DNA of 32,302 nucleotides from Anaerolineae bacterium. Its GTDB lineage: Bacteria; Chloroflexota; Anaerolineae; Anaerolineales; Villigracilaceae. Below, piece by piece: positions 3,191 to 12,379 of this stretch. Position 1 is the stretch's first letter, and every line of letters starts with the position of its first letter. The translations under genes and the position numbers were made by a program. Where the stretch lies: the NCBI GenBank assembly GCA_017303655.1, contig JAFLCE010000051.1:1-32302 (forward strand), written 5' to 3'. The notes under the pieces are model-generated. The model had not been told where the DNA came from. It saw only the letters and a program-made list of their open reading frames with translations, and ran no database searches.

Positions 3191-3769
3191 TCAAGCGCGG
3201 CTAAACTGCAAATTTGCCTCCGCCAGCGGCATTATCTTTTCAACGTACTCGCCCAGAGAGTCGCAGTCTTTCTGTTCATTCCAGTACTGTGCCAGCCCGT
3301 AGATCGCCCAACTGGCGGCGGTGGCCGCGATCTCTGGAGAGGGGTTCGACCCGATTTGTTCAAGCCATGTCATCAACAGACCCTTGGTCTGTTCTTTGAT
3401 CTGCGTCTCCATGAGCGGACCAAACTGGCTGCGCGGCGATTTGCATTGAGTGTTCGCCTCTCCGATGAATTCACACACGGTCACGATTAGCGCGCGCAGA
3501 TTGTCCACACTAAAGTGACAGGCATTCAACGTGCGCTGTTCGAGTTCGGCGCGAAAGTCCTGGCGGATTTTGTAATCGAGCAAAGCAAACTTATCATGGA
3601 AGTGGGCGTAGAACGTGGCGCGGTTGATCTCAGCCATGTCAGTGATATCTTGCACAGTGATCGCGTTGAAACTCTTCTCAGCGAGGAGAGTTTCAACGGA
3701 TTGCAGGATCAGACCACGGGTCCGTTTGATGCGGGGGTCAAGTTTCTCTTCTTGAATTGAGGACAACAT
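3191..3769 (-). CDS. TetR/AcrR family transcriptional regulator
   Basis: This is a 192-residue repressor. Residues 13-60 form the TetR helix-turn-helix (LAEKSFNAITVQDITDMAEI, then NRATFYAHFHDKFALLDYKI), and the rest is the helical ligand-binding and dimerisation domain typical of the family. The ATG at 3769 has GGAGCGAAA just upstream. It is divergent from the DoxX gene and the redox block, with 139 bases between the start codons. Those bases contain a promoter-like pair and a perfect 10-bp inverted repeat. By family behaviour it probably represses itself and the rightward genes and is released by a small, possibly electrophilic or quinone-like, ligand. The ligand is not known. Confidence 0.9.
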   Translation of the reverse strand: MLSSIQEEKLDPRIKRTRGLILQSVETLLAEKSFNAITVQDITDMAEINRATFYAHFHDKFALLDYKIRQDFRAELEQRTLNACHFSVDNLRALIVTVCEFIGEANTQCKSPRSQFGPLMETQIKEQTKGLLMTWLEQIGSNPSPEIAATAASWAIYGLAQYWNEQKDCDSLGEYVEKIMPLAEANLQFSRA

Positions 3770-3881: not shown

Positions 3882-3908
3882 TGTACCATATTCAAAAAGG
3901 AGAGTCAA

Positions 3909-4277
3909 ATAAATATCGCATTGTGGATCGCGCAGGTTTTACTGGGAGCCATGTTTGGCATGGCAGGAGTGATGAAAACTTTTCAAACCGCAAAAGCCAA
4001 AGAGATGTTGCCTTGGGCAAAAGACCGCACGGATAGTTTTGTGCGCTTTGTAGGCATCTCGGAATTGCTCGGAACTTTAGGCATGTTTCTGCCCATCCTG
4101 ACGGGCATTCTGCCCTGGCTGACGCCGTTAGCGGCGGTGGGACTGGCAGTCATTCAGGTACTGGCGATTTTCAGCGTGCATTTGCCGAAGAAGGAATATA
4201 ACGTGCTCCCGATCAATGCTGTATTGCTGGCGATAGCGGTCTTTGTAGTGATTGGCCGCTTGCCGTTGTTCTCGTAA
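3909..4277 (+). CDS. DoxX-family small membrane protein (possible ATA start)
   Basis: This DoxX-like protein has about 118-122 residues and four hydrophobic helices (QVLLGAMFGMAGVMKTFQ at the start, later GILPWLTPLAAVGLAVIQVL). DoxX proteins are membrane proteins linked to thiol and quinone redox homeostasis. The first standard start in frame is TTG at 3921, but it lies 18 bases from the GGAG at 3899-3902. An ATA at 3909 has optimal spacing and would give INIALWIAQ, matching the usual MNIALW-type N-terminus of these proteins. The true start is therefore probably 3909, either as a rare ATA start or as a mutated ATG. It is the first gene right of the TetR operator candidate. Confidence 0.75.
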   Translation: MNIALWIAQVLLGAMFGMAGVMKTFQTAKAKEMLPWAKDRTDSFVRFVGISELLGTLGMFLPILTGILPWLTPLAAVGLAVIQVLAIFSVHLPKKEYNVLPINAVLLAIAVFVVIGRLPLFS

Positions 4278-4830: not shown

Positions 4831-5478
4831 ATGATGACTTCTGCTACACAATCCACCCTAACCCCCAATAAGGAATTTTCCCGTCTGGCAACCGACGAAC
4901 AGATCGAGCGCGTTGCCAAGGCTCTTGAAGCCAATGGCATTCACACGTTGATCGCTGAAAATGGCGGGGATGCGAAACGCCTGTTTTTTGAATTGATTCC
5001 CGATGGCTCTGAGGTCTTTCTTGGCTCATCCGTGACTCTTGAAAAGTTAGGCATCAAGGATGAAATTGATAAATCTGGGCGCTATGACGCGCTGCGACCA
5101 AAGATGTTTGCGATGAACCGCGAGACCCAAGGCAGGGAAATTCGCAAACTGGGTGGCGCGCCTGATTATGCGGCTGGCAGTGTCCACGCGGTAACGGAGG
5201 ACGGGCAGGTCCTGATCGTCTCCAGGACAGGCAGTCAACTTGGCGGCTATGCCTCTAGCGCGGGGAAAGTCATTTGGGTGGTTGGCGCGCAGAAGATCGT
5301 CAAAGACTTGAACGAAGGCTTGCGGCGTGTTGAGGAATATTGTATGCCGCTCGAAGAGAAACACATGCAGCAACTTTATAACATGGGAACAAGCGTGGGC
5401 AAGACACTCATCATTAACAGTGAAGTCCGTCCCAACCGCATCACGATGATTATCGTTAAAGAAGAACTGGGATTCTAA
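4831..5478 (+). CDS. LUD-domain protein (LutC/YkgG-like)
   Basis: This is a 215-residue protein of the LUD superfamily. The N-terminal part (IERVAKALEANGIHTLIAEN) and the central FLGSSVTLEKLG, DYAAGSVHAVTEDGQVLI and VIWVVGAQKIVKDLNEGLRR segments match family features. LutC-type proteins take part in lactate or other hydroxyacid oxidation together with Fe-S subunits LutA and LutB. Stand-alone LUD proteins also occur and their role is poorly known. No LutA/B is visible here, so a lactate role is not assured. The ATG is preceded by AAAAGGA. About 175 bases of non-coding DNA separate it from the YHS gene. Confidence 0.85.
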   Translation: MMTSATQSTLTPNKEFSRLATDEQIERVAKALEANGIHTLIAENGGDAKRLFFELIPDGSEVFLGSSVTLEKLGIKDEIDKSGRYDALRPKMFAMNRETQGREIRKLGGAPDYAAGSVHAVTEDGQVLIVSRTGSQLGGYASSAGKVIWVVGAQKIVKDLNEGLRRVEEYCMPLEEKHMQQLYNMGTSVGKTLIINSEVRPNRITMIIVKEELGF

Positions 5479-5542: not shown

Positions 5543-5968
5543 ATGTTTGGTAAATGGCTGACGAGATTGGTTATGGCGATCTATGTCTTTCTATACCGTC
5601 GAACCGGCGGGAAAGTGGGCGGTCGTCTTGGAGCAATGCCGGTGCTTCTGCTCACCACCACTGGACGCAAGTCCGGGAAGAAACATACTGTGCCGGTGAT
5701 GTACCTCCGCGAGAGTCCCAACTATATTATCACTGCATCCAACAACGGAGGGGAAAAGCCCCCGGCCTGGTGGCTGAATCTAAAAAGCAACCCGCAAGCC
5801 ACAATCGAAATTGGCGGCGATACGAGATCGGTGATAACAGAACAGGCGGGTTCGGAAGAGAAAGAACGGTTGTGGGCGCAACTGGTTGAGAAAGCCCCTG
5901 CCTTTGAAGGCTACCAGAAGCGCGCTCAACGCGAAATTCCAATGGTGATTTTGCGCCCCCAATCGTAA
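5543..5968 (+). CDS. Deazaflavin-dependent nitroreductase-family protein (DDN-like)
   Basis: This is a 141-residue protein of the F420(H2)-dependent quinone/nitroreductase family (DUF385). Diagnostic features are the LLLTTTGRKSGKKHTVPVMY segment followed by the P-A-WWLNLKSNPQATIEIGG segment, which form the split-barrel cofactor site. Family members reduce quinones or nitroaromatics with F420, and some members bind other flavins. The N-terminus has an amphipathic, membrane-associating helix (LVMAIYVFLYRRTGG). The ATG is preceded by GGAGAAACTGC. Lying between the LUD and DsbA-like genes, it fits a quinone or electrophile detoxification block. Confidence 0.9.
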   Translation: MFGKWLTRLVMAIYVFLYRRTGGKVGGRLGAMPVLLLTTTGRKSGKKHTVPVMYLRESPNYIITASNNGGEKPPAWWLNLKSNPQATIEIGGDTRSVITEQAGSEEKERLWAQLVEKAPAFEGYQKRAQREIPMVILRPQS

Positions 5969-5991: not shown

Positions 5992-6600
5992 ATGGACCAA
6001 ATCAAACTCACAATTTTTTCCGACTATGTCTGACCCTGGTGCTATGTCGGCCAGGGTGTGGTCGCAACGCTAATTGAAAAGCACAACGCGCAAGTCGAAT
6101 GGCGCCCGTTTTACCTGCGCCCCGATACGCCACCCGAAGGTATGGAACTGCCTGATCATATTAAGTCCCGCATGGCAGAAACGAATGTCCGCCTAAAGCA
6201 AATGGCGAACGCGGTTGGGCTGGAGATGGTTTTCGCCACGTGCATTCCCAACACGCGCATCGCGCACGAAGCCACAGAGTACGCACGCCAAAAAGGCAAG
6301 GGTTTCGAGTTTCATCATGCCGTGTTCGATAAGTTCTATGGACGCGGCGAAGATGTCAGCAAATGGGATGTCCTGCGCGATGCCGCCCTGCAAGTTGGGC
6401 TGGACGCCGACGAAATGCAGCGTGAGGTAGAGGCAGGCAAGTACACAGCGACAGTAAATGCGCTGGTCAAGGAAGCCTCTCAAATCGGTGTGACGGGCGT
6501 GCCGACCTACGTTCTGAATGATCGCTACGCCATCGTCGGTGCCCAGCCGTATGAAGCCTTCCTGCAAGCGCTGGAACAAATCAAGAAGGAACAAAAATAA
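5992..6600 (+). CDS. DsbA/FrnE-like thiol oxidoreductase, putative selenoprotein (UGA at residue 14)
   Basis: The full frame from ATG 5992 (GGAG six bases upstream) to TAA 6600 gives 202 residues with one in-frame TGA at 6031-6033. The N-terminus reads KLTIFSDYV-[TGA]-PWCYVGQG, and FrnE/DsbA-family proteins have Cys-Pro-Trp-Cys at this point. The TGA therefore replaces the first, nucleophilic Cys and is best read as selenocysteine (UPWC). The rest is a complete DsbA-fold protein with a helical insert and the cis-Pro loop GVTGVPTYVLNDRYAIVGAQ. A perfect CCCTGG/CCAGGG hairpin begins right after the TGA. Without recoding, only a GTG-initiated fragment from 6058 lacking the active site would be called. 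A disrupted gene is the alternative. Confidence 0.85.
6034..6056 (+). promoter_or_regulatory. Candidate bacterial SECIS hairpin in the DsbA-like gene
   Basis: CCCTGG at 6034-6039 is exactly complementary to CCAGGG at 6051-6056, with an 11-base loop (TGCTATGTCGG) containing GU and GG. It starts directly after the in-frame TGA. Bacterial SECIS elements sit immediately 3' of the UGA within the coding region and carry an apical loop G/GU recognised by SelB. The loop here is slightly closer to the UGA than in the E. coli fdhF model. Confidence 0.6.
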
Positions 6601-6716
6601 TCCATAATAAGGAGGTAATTCCCGCCAACATCGTAGAACATTTTCCTCCCGCATGTAAGAAACTAACAGTTTCATCAACAATCAAAATTTAATCAATTCA
6701 TAAAGGAGAAGAAAAA

Positions 6717-7106
6717 ATGGATATCGTATTTCTGATCGGCAGAATCATCGTCGGCATATACTGGATTTTCGGCGGTTACGCTCACTTCGCCCAGGCGCAA
6801 GCCATGATTCCCTGGACGCAGTCCAAAGGCGTGCCGTTCCCCGGGCTGGCTGTGCGCGGCAGCGGCGCAATGATCATCGTCGGTGGACTGAGTATCATGC
6901 TGGGGCTGTACCCGCTGGTGGGAGTTGCCTTGATCGTGCTCTTCATCATCCCGGTCGCGTCAACCATGCACAATTTCTGGACGATTCAAGATCCTATGGC
7001 GCGCCAGATGGATATGACCTTCTTCATGAAGGATTTCTGTATGTTGGGCTGCACACTGATGTTCGCGGCGATCCCCCAGCCTTGGGTCTTAAGCTTGACG
7101 TTCTAA
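6717..7106 (+). CDS. DoxX-family membrane protein
   Basis: This is a 129-residue membrane protein with four predicted helices: FLIGRIIVGIYWIFGGYAHF at the N-terminus, a second helix at about 58-72, LVGVALIVLFIIPVASTMH and a C-terminal one. Its pattern (PWTQSKGVPFPGLAV after helix 1) is typical of DoxX/DoxD-like proteins. The ATG has AAAGGAGAAG upstream. It differs clearly from the first DoxX protein at 3909, so this is not a recent duplication. It follows the Sec-containing DsbA-like gene after 116 bases, which suggests membrane electron transfer or thiol homeostasis linked to that enzyme; the link is inference. Confidence 0.85.
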   Translation: MDIVFLIGRIIVGIYWIFGGYAHFAQAQAMIPWTQSKGVPFPGLAVRGSGAMIIVGGLSIMLGLYPLVGVALIVLFIIPVASTMHNFWTIQDPMARQMDMTFFMKDFCMLGCTLMFAAIPQPWVLSLTF

Positions 7107-7128
7107 AATTAAGTTCTTTAGCAAGAGC

Positions 7129-7155
7129 CAGGATATCTTATCTGCTGATGTCCTG
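7129..7155 (+). terminator. Hairpin after the second DoxX gene
   Basis: CAGGATATC at 7129-7137 pairs with GATGTCCTG at 7147-7155 over nine positions (one G-U wobble) around a nine-base loop, 22 bases past the DoxX stop codon. No T run follows, so it may be a processing or weak termination signal. Confidence 0.3.
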
Positions 7156-7212
7156 TCTCCTGCGGCGGAGGAATCACCAAATAATGAAACTGGAAACGGA
7201 AACATTCTCACA

Positions 7213-7935
7213 ATGAGCAAATTGGCTGTTTTTGACCTTGACGGCACTCTTTATAATGGAAATATTGTTGCTGGCTTTTTGAATCATCATCGCGAACATA
7301 AAGTTAATCGTTTGCGCCTGTATTCATATTTTATGTCTCACACACCTTTGATTCCATTATGGCGAATTGGATTACTGGCTGAAGAGCCTATGCGGGAATT
7401 ATGGGCGCGCAATTTGTCTTGGGCAATAACAGGGATGTCAAAACAAACTGGCAACAGTTGCTTTGAATGGATTACCGAGCATTATGTAGCGCCTTTGATT
7501 CGAAAGGATGTGCATGATATTGCTATGCAACATTTACGGGATAGCTTTCGGGTAATTCTAGTATCAGGAACACCAGCGCCATTGCTTGAAGTCATTGCAA
7601 AAAAACTTGGTATTAAGGAGTCAATTGGAACGCCAGTGAAGATGACCAACGGTAACTACAACGGCAAAGTTGAATTACCCACTTGTCAAGGCGAAGGCAA
7701 AGTAGCTCGCTTGAAATTACTTCTTGGCGAGAATATCAACAACATTGATTGGAAGGGAAGTTACGCCTATGCTGACAGTTTCACAGACAAGCCATTATTA
7801 AGTATTTTTGGTCATCCAGTTGCCGTATATCCAGACCCTAAATTGGCGGCAGAAGCAAAACACAATAACTGGGCAATTCTTGGTGATATTCGAGAACCCA
7901 AAGCGCGCAAACTGCGTGAAGGCAAGAGAGAATAA
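7213..7935 (+). CDS. HAD-superfamily hydrolase, subfamily IB (SerB-like phosphatase)
   Basis: This is a 240-residue haloacid-dehalogenase phosphatase. Motif I is FDLDGTLYNGN (residues 7-17, Asp nucleophile and second Asp), motif II is ILVSGTPAP (Ser/Thr), and the motif III and IV region is KVARLKLLLG followed by YAYADSFTDKPLL. A helical cap follows motif I, as in the IB subfamily that includes phosphoserine phosphatase and phospholipid-head-group phosphatases. The substrate cannot be told from sequence. The gene is noticeably more AT-rich than its neighbours and has only a weak ribosome binding site, so it may have been acquired separately. Confidence 0.88.
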   Translation: MSKLAVFDLDGTLYNGNIVAGFLNHHREHKVNRLRLYSYFMSHTPLIPLWRIGLLAEEPMRELWARNLSWAITGMSKQTGNSCFEWITEHYVAPLIRKDVHDIAMQHLRDSFRVILVSGTPAPLLEVIAKKLGIKESIGTPVKMTNGNYNGKVELPTCQGEGKVARLKLLLGENINNIDWKGSYAYADSFTDKPLLSIFGHPVAVYPDPKLAAEAKHNNWAILGDIREPKARKLREGKRE

Positions 7936-8074
7936 AAGGGTAAGCACGACGCCGTCTTCAACAAGCGGACGGGATGTAAAGTAGGGTCGAAAACAGCAAG
8001 TATATAACGTCTGTTAATCACTGGAATCCGAAACACAACAAAAGCCTTAGTCGTTTTAGAAAGGATTAAAAATC

Positions 8075-8572
8075 ATGGAACACACTCTCCTACCCCAACG
8101 CACACGCCCGCGCCCCCCAACAAATAAAAATATGCCGCATTCCCAGATTGGCGTACAACTTATTCCAGAAGTGAATGCGGAATTGTTTCGGCTCAGTTAT
8201 TCCCTGCCGAATGTGCGCAACGAGCCAACGCAAATCTCCGTGCGTGGGGCGCGGGCGATCTGGCTCGACGAAGACCTGCCTCTCGCTCACCCCGAATCTA
8301 TCGCCGTTGGACGCGAGTTCGCGCACATCCATCCCGATGGCAGTTTACATGTTTCGCTTTCGCCTGAACGAGCGCAGGAAGCCATCGAAATGGGCTGGGC
8401 AGAGCCGCACCCGATGGCGCACTATATGGGCAATCTCGGGATGGTGATGTTGTACACGCCGTTGGACACGCAGGAGTTGGACGTGATCTTTCAACTCATC
8501 GTAGACTCGTACAATTTTGTCACAGGGCGCACATTAAGCGCGGCAGATATAACAGCCGCCGCGAAAAGTTGA
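8075..8572 (+). CDS. Luciferase-fold domain protein (DUF5519-like)
   Basis: This is a 165-residue protein whose core (about residues 60-125) carries the EFAHIHPDGSLHVSLSPERA and MGWAEPHPMAHYM segments characteristic of the small luciferase-domain/DUF5519 family. The conserved His residues suggest metal or ligand binding, but the biochemical role of bacterial members is not established. The ATG has AAAGGAT at good spacing. It is followed after 27 bases by the UGA-containing membrane protein gene, so the two are likely co-transcribed. Confidence 0.7.
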   Translation: MEHTLLPQRTRPRPPTNKNMPHSQIGVQLIPEVNAELFRLSYSLPNVRNEPTQISVRGARAIWLDEDLPLAHPESIAVGREFAHIHPDGSLHVSLSPERAQEAIEMGWAEPHPMAHYMGNLGMVMLYTPLDTQELDVIFQLIVDSYNFVTGRTLSAADITAAAKS

Positions 8573-8599
8573 TTTAACGGAAGCAGAAACGAGGTCCAA

Positions 8600-9046
8600 A
8601 TGATGATGCGTAGCGCAGTGAACTTTTCAGGTTTTCAGAAGAATCCGTCCTTCTCAGAGTCTGAATCAGAAGAGATTGGGGAAGTCTGTATTTCAAATAT
8701 CAGCCCTGCGGAACGGCGCAAACGCCTGCTCGGCGGTGTGATTGGATTTGTGATCGCGCTTGTCGTTCTGGCGGTGTTGATTGCCATCAGCGCGGATCGT
8801 TTATGGCGACTGCCGTTGTTCCTGCTTTTTTTTGGCGCGGCAAATGGATATTTTCAATGGCGCGATAAAACCTGAGTGGGACTTGCTGCGCGCGGCGCGC
8901 GTAATTTGACTGGCAAGGTTGAGAAGATCGAGGATCAGGATGCACTCGCGCAGGTACGGCGTCAGGCGCGGCGGGTTGTCTTCAAGGCTTTTCTTGCTGC
9001 GATCCCGCTGACACTGATTGCGTTTGCTCTTCCGCAATTATGGTGA
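8600..9046 (+). CDS. Small membrane protein, putative novel selenoprotein (UGA at residue 92)
   Basis: The frame from ATG 8600 (GAGG upstream) reaches a TGA at 8873-8875 after 91 residues, but coding character continues in the same frame for 56 more residues to TGA 9044-9046. The junction reads YFQWRDKT-[TGA]-VGLAARGARNL. It follows two hydrophobic helices (about 44-63 and 70-84) and precedes a charged helix (KIEDQDALAQVRRQARRV) and a third hydrophobic helix (FLAAIPLTLIAFALP). From memory, related proteins carry Cys where the TGA lies (KTCV-LAARG pattern); this needs a search. A seven-pair hairpin sits at 8887-8903. Taken together a 148-residue selenoprotein is the best reading. Two separate small ORFs is a weaker alternative, since no start signal precedes the second half. 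Confidence 0.75.
8887..8903 (+). promoter_or_regulatory. Candidate bacterial SECIS hairpin in the membrane-protein gene
   Basis: TGCGCGC at 8887-8893 pairs with GCGCGTA at 8897-8903 (seven pairs, one G-U wobble) around a GGC loop at 8894-8896. The loop begins 19 bases after the in-frame TGA, inside the 16-37 base window usually tolerated for bacterial SECIS loops, and it contains the expected guanines. Confidence 0.6.
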
Positions 9047-9088
9047 TCAAACGAAATTTTCTCTCGAGAAGTTGATAGGAGGCACGTG

Positions 9089-9277
9089 ATGAAACAGATT
9101 CTAAACATCGTCGGAACTTTATTTGTTGTGATCGGGATTTTTTGGATCCTGCAAGGAACCAACATTGTTAAGACTGGCGCAATGGCTGGGCAGAGTCAAT
9201 GGGCGATCATTGGAGTTGTGGTTGGCCTTGTTGGAATTGGTGTGCTCGTCTTCGGCAATCGTCGACGTCCAAAGTGA
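9089..9277 (+). CDS. Small two-helix membrane protein
   Basis: This is a 62-residue protein with two hydrophobic helices (ILNIVGTLFVVIGIFWILQG and WAIIGVVVGLVGIGVLVFG) joined by a short polar loop, ending in a basic tail (NRRRPK). The ATG at 9089 is preceded by a very strong AGGAGG. It lies 42 bases after the UGA-containing membrane protein gene and is probably in the same transcript. The function is unknown, but the size and topology suit an accessory subunit. Confidence 0.8.
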   Translation: MKQILNIVGTLFVVIGIFWILQGTNIVKTGAMAGQSQWAIIGVVVGLVGIGVLVFGNRRRPK

Positions 9278-9337
9278 GATTGAAGATCCGCTTAACCGAC
9301 TTGTGCGTTACTCGAAATAGTAGACGGAGATTTTAGT

Positions 9338-9724
9338 ATGCAATTCTTGCTTGGAATCCACGCCTTTATAGCCTTGTTAATCTTGCTCGTGGGGTTTGTC
9401 CTTATTGTAAAGTTTGCGATAGGAACAGCTCGGCAAAGTCCCTTCGGCCGGTTGGATCGCATGCTGGCCGCCATCTATACCGGACTGCTCGACCTGCAGG
9501 CGCTGCTTGGGATCGTTCTGTTTTTATTGCGGCTGGATGACGGTCTGGCTTCACCCGTGGCGCTGCACGCTGCGGTCGCGCTGGCAGGCGTCGTAGTCGC
9601 ACATCTGAACGCCCGCTGGCGTAACCAACCGGATGCCGTGCGATTCCGAAACGGACTCTTGACGCTGGGCGGATCTTATATCCTCATTCTGGCCGGAGTG
9701 TACTTCGTGAACTCCTTCGCATGA
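9338..9724 (+). CDS. Four-helix membrane protein of unknown function
   Basis: This is a 128-residue integral membrane protein with about four helices: AFIALLILLVGFVLIVKFAI, then AAIYTGLLDLQALLGIVLFL, then ALHAAVALAGVVVAHLNARW, and a C-terminal LTLGGSYILILAGVYFVNSF. A His in helix 3 and another just after it could bind haem or metal, but this is speculative. The ATG is preceded by ACGGAGATTTT. It is co-directional with the small membrane protein upstream (60-base gap). I do not recognise a named family. Confidence 0.8.
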   Translation: MQFLLGIHAFIALLILLVGFVLIVKFAIGTARQSPFGRLDRMLAAIYTGLLDLQALLGIVLFLLRLDDGLASPVALHAAVALAGVVVAHLNARWRNQPDAVRFRNGLLTLGGSYILILAGVYFVNSFA

Positions 9725-9772
9725 ACCAGCGATAGCTGCCCTTTATCTTTTTGGCGTAATTACAGGAGAATA

Positions 9773-10702
9773 ATGAATACCCCACCTATCCCTCAACCCG
9801 TTGCAATATCCCCACATCGCATCCACCCGCAGACCAAACCAGGCTACGTCCATCTGAAAGTTGCCGACCTCAAGAATCAACTCGCCTTTTACCAACAAGT
9901 ATTAGGCTTGCGTCTGCACTGGAAGGATGAGAACAGCGCCGGTCTAGGCGCGGGCGGCGCAGATTTTGTGCGCCTGACCCAAATCCAAAATGGCAAACGC
10001 TATCGCGGCGTAACCGGCATCTATCACTTTGCCATTCTCTTCCCCAATCGCCGCGAATTGGCGCGCGTCGTGGCGCGCCTCTTTGCCACGCGCTGGCAGT
10101 GTTACCCCACCGATCATGTGATGACCAAAACCACTTACCTGGATGACCCCGAAGGCAACAACATCGAACTGTATTGCGAATCGCCCGAAGACGGCATTTT
10201 TGTTGTAAATGCCGACGGGAGTTTTTACGCCCGTCACGCCGATGGCAGACCCAGTGATGGGCGCGAACCACTCGACGTTGACGCGCTCCTCGCCCACCTG
10301 ACCAAAGATGACCGCCTCGATGAACCCGTCCCGCCCGAAGTGCGTATGGGACATTTCCACATGTACGTCGCCAACTTGAATGACACGCGTCGCTTCTATC
10401 ACGAGCAACTTGGCTTCGACGATATGGGTGTGGCGCGCAGCGGCTTTCGCATGGGCATGGTCTCGGCGGGCGGCTATCATCATCACATCGGTTACAACAC
10501 CTGGCAGGGCGAAGGCGCACCGCCTCCGCCTCCCGACGCGCTGGGGCTGAAAAACATCTCATTCGTCCTGCCCGACCGCGCCGCTTTGGATCAACTTCTG
10601 GCACGCATCGAGGAAGTCGAAATGCCTTACAACCAGACCAATGAAGGTATCCTGGTAGTAGACCCCGCGCAAAACAGCGTGTTGTTTTCGGTTGAAGGAT
10701 AA
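9773..10702 (+). CDS. VOC-family protein, two-domain extradiol-dioxygenase/glyoxalase type
   Basis: This is a 309-residue protein with two vicinal-oxygen-chelate modules. Domain 1 (about 24-135) begins TKPGYVHLKVADLKNQLAFY and contains YHFAILFPNRREL and GNNIELYCE. Domain 2 (about 190-305) contains MGHFHMYVANLNDTRRFYHE, GGYHHHIGYNTW and a closing DPAQNSVLFS. This duplicated layout with His/His/Glu metal ligands is typical of CatE-like catechol-2,3-dioxygenase relatives. The substrate is unknown. The ATG has ACAGGAGAAT upstream. The PIG-L gene begins one base after its stop, so the two form an operon. Confidence 0.9.
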   Translation: MNTPPIPQPVAISPHRIHPQTKPGYVHLKVADLKNQLAFYQQVLGLRLHWKDENSAGLGAGGADFVRLTQIQNGKRYRGVTGIYHFAILFPNRRELARVVARLFATRWQCYPTDHVMTKTTYLDDPEGNNIELYCESPEDGIFVVNADGSFYARHADGRPSDGREPLDVDALLAHLTKDDRLDEPVPPEVRMGHFHMYVANLNDTRRFYHEQLGFDDMGVARSGFRMGMVSAGGYHHHIGYNTWQGEGAPPPPPDALGLKNISFVLPDRAALDQLLARIEEVEMPYNQTNEGILVVDPAQNSVLFSVEG

Positions 10703-10703
10703 T

Positions 10704-11540
10704 ATGACAAACGTCTCCCGCCCCCTGTTGGCTGTCTTTGCGCATCCTGACGATGAATCCTTTGGGACAGGTGGAACTCTGTCGCGTTATGCTGCCGAAG
10801 GACATCCCATCGCCCTTGTCTGCGCTACACGTGGCGAAGTCGGCGAAATTTCCGATCCCAGCCTTGCCACGCCGCAAACGCTTGGACGGGTACGCGAGGG
10901 AGAACTGCGCGCCGCCGCCCGCGCCCTCGGAATTCAGGAAGTAATTTTGTTGGACTACCGCGACTCTGGCATGGACGGCACGCCTGAAAACCAGGATCCG
11001 CGCGCTTTCATTAATGCCCCCGAAGGCGAAGTTGTCGAACACCTGACGCGCATCATTCGTGACCTGCGACCTGAAATCGTCCTGACCTTTGAGCCGGGCG
11101 GCGGCTACGGACATCCCGACCACATCGCCATCAGCCGTTACACCACCGCCGCCTTTCACGCCGCCTCGGACCCGCAGCGCTTTCCCGAAGCGGGTCCCGC
11201 CTTCCAGCCCAGCCGCCTCTTTTACACCGCCATCCCCACGAAATTCTTCACCGAACTGCGCGACCGCATGGAAGCGCGCGGACTGGACACTTCCATGCTC
11301 GACCAAATCCTCCTACGTCCCAGTTTCAACGATGACCTGATTACCGCGCTGATGGATGTAGCCGCCTACAACGAAGCCAAGTGGAATGCCATCAACGCCC
11401 ACCGTACCCAGTTCGGACCCGATAATCTATTTCGTCGTTTGCCGGAAGACCTCGTCCGTGATTTGATGAGCCGAGAGTATTTCTCCCAGGCGCATCCGCT
11501 CGTGAACGGCGAGGGTATTTCTTCTGATTTATTTTCTTGA
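10704..11540 (+). CDS. PIG-L/LmbE-family zinc deacetylase
   Basis: This 278-residue protein opens with the hallmark AVFAHPDDESFGTGGTLSRY (His-Pro-Asp-Asp zinc and catalytic motif) and carries the third zinc ligand region GGYGHPDHIAISRYT. Family members remove acetyl groups from N-acetylglucosaminyl-linked small molecules, for example in mycothiol, bacillithiol and other thiol or glycolipid pathways, and can act as amidase-type detoxifiers. Start chosen at ATG 10704 (AAGGA five bases upstream). The upstream in-frame TTG lies within the previous gene. A low-molecular-weight thiol role would suit the neighbouring peroxiredoxin but is not shown. Confidence 0.9.
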   Translation: MTNVSRPLLAVFAHPDDESFGTGGTLSRYAAEGHPIALVCATRGEVGEISDPSLATPQTLGRVREGELRAAARALGIQEVILLDYRDSGMDGTPENQDPRAFINAPEGEVVEHLTRIIRDLRPEIVLTFEPGGGYGHPDHIAISRYTTAAFHAASDPQRFPEAGPAFQPSRLFYTAIPTKFFTELRDRMEARGLDTSMLDQILLRPSFNDDLITALMDVAAYNEAKWNAINAHRTQFGPDNLFRRLPEDLVRDLMSREYFSQAHPLVNGEGISSDLFS

Positions 11541-11600
11541 CGGAATTGGTTTCCCTATACACTACCGCATCCTCATCACCAACCGAAAAAGGAGATTCTT

Positions 11601-12077
11601 GTGAGCACTGACTTGGAAGTAGGTTCTCCCGCGCCCGATTTCAGCCTGACTGCAAACGATGGTCGGCAAATCGGGTTGGCGGAATATAAAGGCAAATCGC
11701 ACATTGTTTTGTTCTTTGTACGCGAATACAACTGAATACAATGCAGATCGCATGTCGCCCAGTTGGGGCGCTTGAATGAAGAATTTATTAAAGCAGGGGC
11801 GCAGATCCTGGTGATTTTGGGCGATTCGCCCGAACGCGCCCGCCAGTATGCGGCGACGCTCAAGACACCCTTCCCTGTATTGTCTGATCCTGACCGCGCA
11901 GTATATCAGTTATTTGGGTTGGATAAAGTGGCTTTTGTCATCCAGCGCACCGCCTCAGTGGTGGCGGATCGGGAAGGTTTGATTCAATATATCAAGCGCA
12001 GCGTCAATCCAATGACCTGGCTCCAGGAAAGCCGTGAATTATTGGAGTTCGTAAAAGGAATGGAAAGCAAACCATGA
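11601..12077 (+). CDS. Peroxiredoxin-like protein (AhpC/TSA), putative selenoprotein (UGA at residue 45)
   Basis: The frame from GTG 11601 (AGGAG six bases upstream) to TGA 12077 gives 158 residues with one in-frame TGA at 11733-11735. The N-terminus is textbook peroxiredoxin: VGSPAPDFSLTANDGRQIGL, then IVLFFVREYN-[TGA]-IQCRSHV. The TGA lies exactly where the peroxidatic Cys of Prx-like CxxC proteins sits, giving U-x-x-C. The remainder (AQLGRLNEEFIKAGAQILVI, FPVLSDPDRAVYQLFGL) is intact thioredoxin-fold sequence. A five-pair hairpin with an AGTTG loop follows 20 bases after the TGA. Standard annotation would lose the catalytic half. The role is probably peroxide reduction. The stop overlaps the start of a ferredoxin gene, suggesting an electron-transfer link. 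Confidence 0.88.
11756..11770 (+). promoter_or_regulatory. Candidate bacterial SECIS hairpin in the peroxiredoxin gene
   Basis: CGCCC at 11756-11760 pairs perfectly with GGGCG at 11766-11770, leaving an AGTTG loop with a GU. The loop lies 26-30 bases after the in-frame TGA, inside the 16-37 base window usual for bacterial SECIS loops. A weaker hairpin (ATGC/GCAT at 11741-11753) lies before it. Confidence 0.6.
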
Positions 12078-12379
12078 CGACTGCTTCAAAGTCTGTAGAT
12101 TGCAAACAGGAACGGGGCGTATTCATGCCCATCGTCAACCGCGAAAAATGCGAAGGCAAAGCCGAGTGCGTGGCAGTCTGTCCCTACAATGTATTCGAGA
12201 TGGGGATTGTTCCGCCGCAAGAGCGCGCCACGTTAAGTTTCGTGGGATGGCTCAAGGGCACGGCGCACGGCTGGAAACAAGCCTTCCCAGTCCACGCCGA
12301 AGCCTGCCGCGCCTGCGCGGAGTGCGTCGGCAGTTGCCCCGAAAAAGCCATTACCCTCAAACGGGTGGCGGTTGCGTAA
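12074..12379 (+). CDS. 2[4Fe-4S] ferredoxin-like protein
   Basis: This is a 101-residue ferredoxin. The first cluster motif is REKCEGKAECVAVCPYNVFE (C-x5-C-x3-CP), and the second is ACRACAECVGSCPEKAITLK (CxxCxxCxxxCP). About 45 residues separate them, longer than in minimal ferredoxins. The ATG at 12074 overlaps the peroxiredoxin stop by four bases (ATGA), so translation is coupled. An internal ATG at 12125 (MPIVNREKC) is an alternative start that would remove an atypical 17-residue leader. It likely passes electrons to a partner, and the UxxC peroxiredoxin is the obvious candidate from context. Confidence 0.88.
   Translation: MTTASKSVDCKQERGVFMPIVNREKCEGKAECVAVCPYNVFEMGIVPPQERATLSFVGWLKGTAHGWKQAFPVHAEACRACAECVGSCPEKAITLKRVAVA

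Follow-up and report, generated by a model that had tools for sequence, protein, structure and literature searches.

A 2026 review catalogues 119 prokaryotic selenoprotein families and subfamilies (PMC13188914), and its Table 1 includes both a DsbA-like form 1, defined by a PF01323 domain with a UxxC motif, and a Prx-like thiol:disulfide oxidoreductase, defined by a PF00578 domain with a UxxC motif. Here, we describe three neighbouring genes, each interrupted by a single in-frame TGA, in a 32,302-nucleotide stretch of DNA (the window; contig JAFLCE010000051.1 of assembly GCA_017303655.1) from an Anaerolineae bacterium (order Anaerolineales) of the phylum Chloroflexota. The three genes encode a FrnE/DsbA-like protein, a small membrane protein and an AhpC/TSA (Prx-like) protein, all predicted to contain selenocysteine (Sec, U). 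The operons SAO, Tso, grd, prd and frhA-frhD-hdrA likewise place several selenoprotein genes side by side, but none of the operons named in section 9 of the review joins a FrnE-like, a Prx-like and a membrane protein (PMC13188914), and the window trio is kept in close relatives only. By title and the start of the abstract, we found no paper on a FrnE selenoprotein, and a search of the same kind on Anaerolineae and Chloroflexota selenoproteins, which took in few subscription papers or preprints, produced none on the cluster or on the membrane family. Chloroflexi are mentioned in a survey from 2006 of how bacteria use selenocysteine (PMC1794560).

Positions 5992 to 6600, plus strand: predicted FrnE/DsbA-like selenoprotein with a UPWC motif and Sec14 (TGA at 6031-6033, codon 14); PF01323, E 2.5e-38.
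Positions 8600 to 9046, plus strand: predicted small membrane selenoprotein of 148 amino acids with two or three transmembrane (TM) segments, Cys30 and Sec92 (TGA at 8873-8875, codon 92).
Positions 11601 to 12077, plus strand: predicted AhpC/TSA (Prx-like) selenoprotein with a GTG start, a UIQC motif and Sec45 (TGA at 11733-11735, codon 45); PF00578, E 2.7e-25.

Taken as a whole, we consider it roughly 80% probable that these are three true selenoproteins in one block, that their recoding is guided by selenocysteine insertion sequence (SECIS) hairpins, and that they serve in redox protection together with their neighbours. In the mechanism that we propose, SelB and tRNA-Sec would insert selenocysteine at each internal UGA, and a SECIS hairpin with its loop 18-25 nt downstream would guide each insertion. 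The first protein would then act as a thiol oxidoreductase of the FrnE/DsbA-like UxxC kind. The second would be a small membrane protein whose Cys precedes the first TM segment (TM1) and whose Sec lies where the second (TM2) ends, both probably on the same cytosolic face, and the third a Prx-like UxxC thiol oxidoreductase or peroxidase. All three would presumably cycle between a selenol/thiol and a selenenylsulfide form. Selenocysteine recoding of the three genes is strongly supported by a UGA common to homologues, by the existence of Cys versions and by the presence of selA, selB, selC and selD, and it is very likely that the three predicted selenoproteins are real.

As the earlier note had claimed, each of the three frames (5992-6600, 8600-9046 and 11601-12077) holds exactly one internal in-frame TGA, at codons 14, 92 and 45, respectively, while TGA serves elsewhere in the window as a normal stop. 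It terminates 7 of the 16 window genes checked, namely the membrane and Prx-like genes themselves and five others. This last observation is what one would expect if the three genes were pseudogenes, or if translation genuinely terminated at the internal TGA to give short products. Such termination would leave a FrnE-like product of just 13 residues, however, and apart from the internal TGA none of the three frames has another in-frame stop before its end. Homologues of all three families, which we sought in a sample of 249 genomes of the class and, for the membrane family, also in 400 genomes of the phylum, include forms with Cys at the TGA position. The ratio of nonsynonymous to synonymous substitution rates (dN/dS) downstream of the TGA is 0.07-0.36 across the three families where it is unsaturated, in hand-picked sets whose more distant pairs are mostly saturated, which indicates purifying selection on the sequence after the TGA. 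These data, along with the selenocysteine machinery and the SECIS-like hairpins described below, make pseudogenes or genuine termination hardly credible. No other plus-strand TGA read-through frame in the window appeared to encode a plausible protein upon inspection by eye.

The earlier note had proposed looking for selA, selB, selC and selD in the same genome, and all four are present. We found selA (443 bits), selB (343 bits), selC, the gene for tRNA-Sec (anticodon tca, 68.5 bits), and selD (361 bits; L020, C129:40505-41434). The selD gene carries one in-frame TGA of its own, which lies within a CAGU motif, and we take this site to be the catalytic place. Given this TGA in the CAGU motif, SelD would itself be a selenoprotein. 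Within the window, no tRNA was found and an Rfam scan returned nothing at the gathering score.

The FrnE-like protein has as its closest solved structure FrnE itself (5cnw, E 3e-28), and its U14 aligns with the first Cys of the CPWC motif in that structure. Thus, the earlier note's claim that two of the three TGA codons fall exactly at the catalytic Cys holds for this gene; for the Prx-like gene it holds only in the sense that the TGA takes the place of the first Cys of a CxxC motif. With its PF01323 domain and UxxC active site, the FrnE-like protein falls into DsbA-like selenoprotein form 1; it shares the PF01323 fold and has UxxC where FrnE has CxxC, but differs in being a FrnE-like subgroup within the Anaerolineae. 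The TGA is found in all 7 FrnE-like sequences of a hand-picked set that includes the window, and in the class sample one TGA is present in all 11 near-full-length matches whose identity is 46% or more (one gene of genome G027 being listed twice among them). The dN/dS after the TGA is 0.07-0.09 for the three closest relatives. At a threshold of E 0.001, FrnE-like matches occur in 203 of the 249 class genomes, a count that includes distant thioredoxin-fold proteins. A second FrnE-like gene in the same genome (L108:9131-9739, C99) is 64% identical to the first and has TGA at the same codon, again within a UPWC motif.

The Prx-like protein combines a PF00578 domain with UxxC and in this respect agrees with the Prx-like thiol:disulfide oxidoreductase of Table 1 (PMC13188914), which has the same AhpC/TSA domain. 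We considered whether it might instead be a selenoperoxiredoxin, in which a TxxU motif puts Sec at the peroxidatic position of PxxxTxxU, and the motif alignment to 5enu ruled this out: U45 aligns with the Thr, and C48 with the Cys, of the PrxQ-type TPGC motif. The Sec is therefore predicted to take the leading place in UxxC and not the peroxidatic position. TGA is found in 5 of 6 hand-picked Prx-like sequences, the window included, the sixth being a paralogue from the same genome (at C93) with TGC at the site. In the class sample, 13 Prx-like matches have an identity of 48% or more, and 9 of these carry one TGA. The dN/dS after the TGA is 0.22-0.36 for four relatives. Prx-like matches occur in 240 of the 249 class genomes at E 0.001, again with distant thioredoxin-fold proteins included. 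A further Prx-like gene of the same genome (L179, C98:35457-35858) has one in-frame TGA, within a UPHC motif. Judged by domain and motif, the predicted FrnE-like and Prx-like proteins both belong to selenoprotein kinds that have already been catalogued.

The membrane protein, by comparison with the Pfam and NCBIfam models, belongs to no family above cut-off, and we found no solved structural relative of it. When 13 members of its family were scanned against Pfam and NCBIfam, the first had no match above cut-off and the others had weak matches only; in a scan of five members against Pfam, four of them distant, none had a match above cut-off. By its Pfam or NCBIfam matches it corresponds to none of the 119 families and subfamilies of the review, the cd-, PTHR- or model-less rows of which lay outside the scan, and since no such match is above cut-off, it would stand outside the catalogued families as far as those models define them. 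It is therefore a candidate for a new selenoprotein family. Relatives are found in 14 of the 249 class genomes and in 39 of the 400 phylum genomes. We aligned 37 rows, leaving aside L035 (a weak match, E 7.7e-4), L038 and L039 (near-copies of L023), repeat fetches and 9 matches lacking a locus. All 37 have a Cys 1-3 residues before an invariant Asn (the NI motif) ahead of TM1, and the column of the UGA, which follows TM2, holds Sec in 14 rows and Cys in 23. On the unrooted tree, a single change separates the Sec rows from the Cys rows (support values 85/89), and 87% of the bootstrap trees likewise need just one change. The dN/dS after the TGA is 0.07-0.13 for the two closest relatives; this set was made up of TGA forms only, so its 8 of 8 TGA codons are no measure of conservation. 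A second Sec-form membrane gene is present in the same genome (L109:3789-4202, C3), near genes for VOC, F420-reductase-like, DoxX-like, TetR and SurE proteins.

We compared the distribution of the Sec and Cys forms with that of SelA, leaving aside the Sec-form genomes G255, G585, G270, G336 and G291 and 16 more distant Cys-form genomes. SelA is present in five of six Sec-form genomes tested (G000, G061, G213, G027 and G218) and was not found in the sixth, G047, which is 81% complete. The earlier note had asked whether Cys versions occur in relatives lacking Sec, and this appears to be so in part: we found no SelA in the Cys-form genomes G003 and G073 and just a sub-threshold fragment in G156, but Cys forms also occur alongside SelA in G228, G138, G041 and G208.

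Positively charged residues lie before TM1 and after TM2 of the membrane protein, which suggests that its Cys and its Sec are both on the cytosolic side. The number of TM segments is given as two or three because TM2 of the window protein falls below the hydropathy cut-off. A different view of this protein is that it is not a redox protein at all, and that its Cys and Sec/Cys bind metal or sulfur/selenium species, for example in a transporter or sensor distantly like the membrane domain of YgaP. The YgaP-like TM domain (PF11127/DUF2892) resembles it in being short and membrane-embedded, in starting with N..R..R and in having a Cys that follows a TM segment, and it is the commonest weak Pfam match of the family, although only in 5 of 13 members and with a best E of 0.026, below cut-off. 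There is no significant profile match, however: kinship with the YgaP TM domain is not supported, the profile-profile comparison giving a probability of 2.6% over 21 columns with matches below the Pfam gathering cut-off. Furthermore, the invariant columns of the 13-row alignment hold just two Cys/Sec sites and no His. A binding role of this kind therefore seems unlikely. Separately, genome G285 has a YgaP-like TM domain gene (L139) whose one in-frame TGA does not fall on a Cys site; the gene may be broken or the TGA a sequencing error.

For selenocysteine insertion, the rules for bacterial SECIS elements (bSECIS), as given in the review, call for a G in the first two loop positions, a distance of 16-37 nt from the UGA and an energy of -7.5 kcal/mol or lower (PMC13188914). 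The earlier note had reported a hairpin near each TGA, and the hairpin that we find in each of the three window genes agrees with these rules.

Positions 6031 to 6066, plus strand: UGA and hairpin of the FrnE-like gene; hairpin at 6045-6066, loop GGGUG, 20 nt after the UGA, -8.4 kcal/mol.
Positions 8873 to 8903, plus strand: UGA and hairpin of the membrane protein gene; hairpin at 8887-8903 with a GC-rich stem, loop GGC (GCG in the register shared with relatives), 18 nt, -9.2 kcal/mol.
Positions 11733 to 11770, plus strand: UGA and hairpin of the Prx-like gene; CGCCC-AGUUG-GGGCG at 11756-11770, 25 nt after the UGA, -8.1 kcal/mol.

Codon-shuffled sequences equalled these hairpins in 4, 5.5 and 1.5% of 200 shuffles for the FrnE-like, membrane and Prx-like genes, respectively, and a repeat with 100 shuffles gave fractions of 0.04, 0.11 and 0.05. 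We then compared rows from fetched loci (best matches), having dropped those that do not span the codon or are cut short. With the window included, -7.5 kcal/mol is reached by 13 of 27 TGA rows for the FrnE-like family, 5 of 9 for the membrane family and 26 of 28 for the Prx-like family, and 44 of 64 TGA rows overall follow the bSECIS rule. The same energy is reached by 1 of 3, 0 of 7 and 0 of 2 Cys rows, respectively, and one Prx-like row with Thr at the site fails the energy rule. In the Prx-like stem, 4 of 7 pairs show changes on both sides over nine sequences, a result reached by none of 500 shuffles, while the two pairs farthest out fail to form in 4 and 5 of the 9 sequences. In the membrane stem, 97.8% of cells are paired over 9 Sec forms versus 80% over 7 Cys forms. 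Comparison supports the predicted recoding, hairpins and Sec/Cys pairs.

The trio is embedded in a same-strand block that also contains a luciferase-domain protein, an ABC exporter, an LLM oxidoreductase and an esterase, with a TetR-family gene upstream.

Positions 3191 to 3769, minus strand: TetR-family regulator, upstream of the cluster; PF00440, E 6e-8.
Positions 3900 to 4277, plus strand: second DoxX-like frame (label assigned by eye), flanked by the TetR and YHS genes; shares 64% identity with the L040 DoxX-like protein.
Positions 4831 to 5478, plus strand: LUD-domain protein; PF02589, E 7.2e-20.
Positions 5543 to 5968, plus strand: F420H2-dependent quinone reductase family protein; PF04075, E 7.9e-37; TIGR00026, 98.9 bits, above cut-off.
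Positions 6717 to 7106, plus strand: DoxX-family membrane protein; PF07681, E 6.7e-7, above cut-off.
Positions 9773 to 10702, plus strand: two-domain VOC/glyoxalase protein, extradiol-dioxygenase-like; PF00903, E 7.3e-16, two stretches.
Positions 10692 to 11540, plus strand: PIG-L deacetylase; closest in NCBIfam to MshB (194 bits, with a cut-off of 224) and to Mca, below cut-off.
Positions 12074 to 12379, plus strand: ferredoxin-type protein with two clusters, its frame overlapping the Prx-like gene at the latter's end; both PF13237 and PF12838 exceed their cut-offs.

The earlier note had seen in this density a dedicated selenium-dependent module and had proposed to ask whether the UGA genes travel together in related Anaerolineae. 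They do so in part, and the evidence backs a dedicated module only partly. L037 and L038/L101 have all three in synteny, with L038 and L101 probably representing one species in view of their nearly identical identities, but the trio is split in G027 and G213. L037, L038 and L101 share the gene order FrnE-DoxX-luciferase-membrane-VOC-PIGL-Prx-ferredoxin-LLM-esterase, and as far as the ferredoxin gene it is kept at 80-98% identity. The HAD gene, the ABC exporter and two small membrane frames after the membrane gene have no match in the L037, L038 and L101 blocks, and the LUD and F420 genes have none in the L037 block. The G027 block (L102) keeps the order likewise, with the FrnE-like, Prx-like and ABC genes, but lacks the membrane gene, which lies elsewhere in that genome, next to a different VOC gene (L103). 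The best G213 matches, which share 63, 53 and 47-49% identity and all carry a TGA, are not clustered: 17 kb separates the Prx-like gene from the membrane gene. They may be paralogues. Since the three genes are together only in close relatives, we regard the trio as a feature of the close lineage of the window.

These same data bear on the alternative that the three are independent, ordinary selenoproteins of a Sec-rich genome, adjacent by chance or by lineage-specific rearrangement and forming no selenium-dependent module. The separation in G027 and G213 agrees with this alternative, as do the TGA forms of the Prx-like and FrnE-like families in many sampled Anaerolineae. Chance placement is also conceivable: for assumed counts of 7-60 uniformly placed Sec genes, three would fall within 5.8 kb with a probability of 0-14%, or about 2-7% if the genome has 30-45. 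We found at least seven (selD, two FrnE-like, two membrane and two Prx-like genes, each with TGA at the expected motif), a total that may be higher, and this count and the conserved gene order stand against independence. On balance, we regard independence as a serious contender, at a little short of even odds.

On the reading that we prefer, of three selenoproteins acting with their neighbours, those neighbours are of interest because several recur. Of 11 other loci, 6 have a VOC gene no more than about 1.3 kb from the membrane gene; in L040, L103 and L109 it sits upstream, and in L037, L038 and L101 downstream, of the membrane gene. TetR and the second DoxX-like gene are kept in L038, L040, L101 and L109 as in the window, and several of the loci with the VOC gene also have LUD or F420-linked genes; the SurE, DoxX-like and F420-reductase-like labels in other loci were assigned by eye. 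CatD of Bacillus subtilis is a DoxX-type protein, and the catDE (catechol 2,3-dioxygenase) operon and the Mhq quinone-stress genes of that organism likewise combine VOC, DoxX-type membrane, quinone reductase and esterase proteins in a cluster. The regulators there are CatR and YodB, in contrast to TetR in the window, and the window adds F420-linked and selenoprotein genes. The catDE operon, whose dioxygenase acts in catechol detoxification, provides a functional precedent (PMC6212828). We did not file the cluster under Mhq/cat quinone detoxification, the VOC protein and the esterase being under the HpaD, catechol dioxygenase and MhqD cut-offs. Filing under mycothiol (MshB/Mca) or bacillithiol was likewise rejected, as PIG-L scores 194 bits against the MshB cut-off of 224 and BshC was not found; MshC was not searched.

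Some of the neighbouring genes suggest a role for the trio in defence against quinones, peroxides or other electrophiles. Its partners in that role would be the DoxX, VOC and LUD proteins and the F420-dependent quinone reductase, with TetR as the regulator. The most speculative step is that the Cys30-Sec92 pair of the membrane protein may reduce quinone- or peroxide-type oxidants at the membrane surface. More specifically, this small integral membrane protein might represent a new family in which Cys30 and Sec92, paired at the cytosolic membrane surface, form the redox centre for Sec-dependent defence against quinones or lipid peroxides, operating with a VOC dioxygenase-like enzyme, DoxX, LUD and F420H2-dependent reductases and joined in this lineage by the Sec-FrnE and Sec-Prx-like proteins; we put this forward tentatively and consider it rather unlikely in this full form.

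Several observations weigh against the overall reading. The sel genes all lie on contigs other than that of the window, in a metagenome-assembled genome that is 93.55% complete with 5.82% contamination. Plain minimum-free-energy folding of the hairpin regions is no better than that of shuffled sequences (z -1.14 to +0.18), which leaves the model-specific test and comparison as the grounds for the hairpins. TGA rows fail to reach -7.5 kcal/mol in 14 of 27 cases for the FrnE-like family, 4 of 9 for the membrane family and 2 of 28 for the Prx-like family, and the Cys controls for this test are few (3, 7 and 2, respectively). Pairing of the membrane stem is the weaker evidence because the stem overlaps conserved Arg codons, which would be paired anyway. 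The trio is not together across the genus. In L104, L111 (a contig of 4.6 kb), L112, L113 and L114 we found no VOC gene close to the membrane gene, and SurE is an equally constant neighbour outside the window block, following the membrane gene in L040, L103 and L109 and lying 4 kb away in L104. HpaD is the best NCBIfam match of the VOC protein, but the VOC protein and the esterase score far below the HpaD and MhqD cut-offs, and BshC was not found in the window's genome.

An annotation that reads every UGA as a stop would truncate all three of these predicted proteins. The VOC, DoxX-like and TetR neighbours that recur in several related loci offer a testable hint as to function, and the candidate membrane selenoprotein family adds a clear partition of Sec and Cys forms across the phylum.

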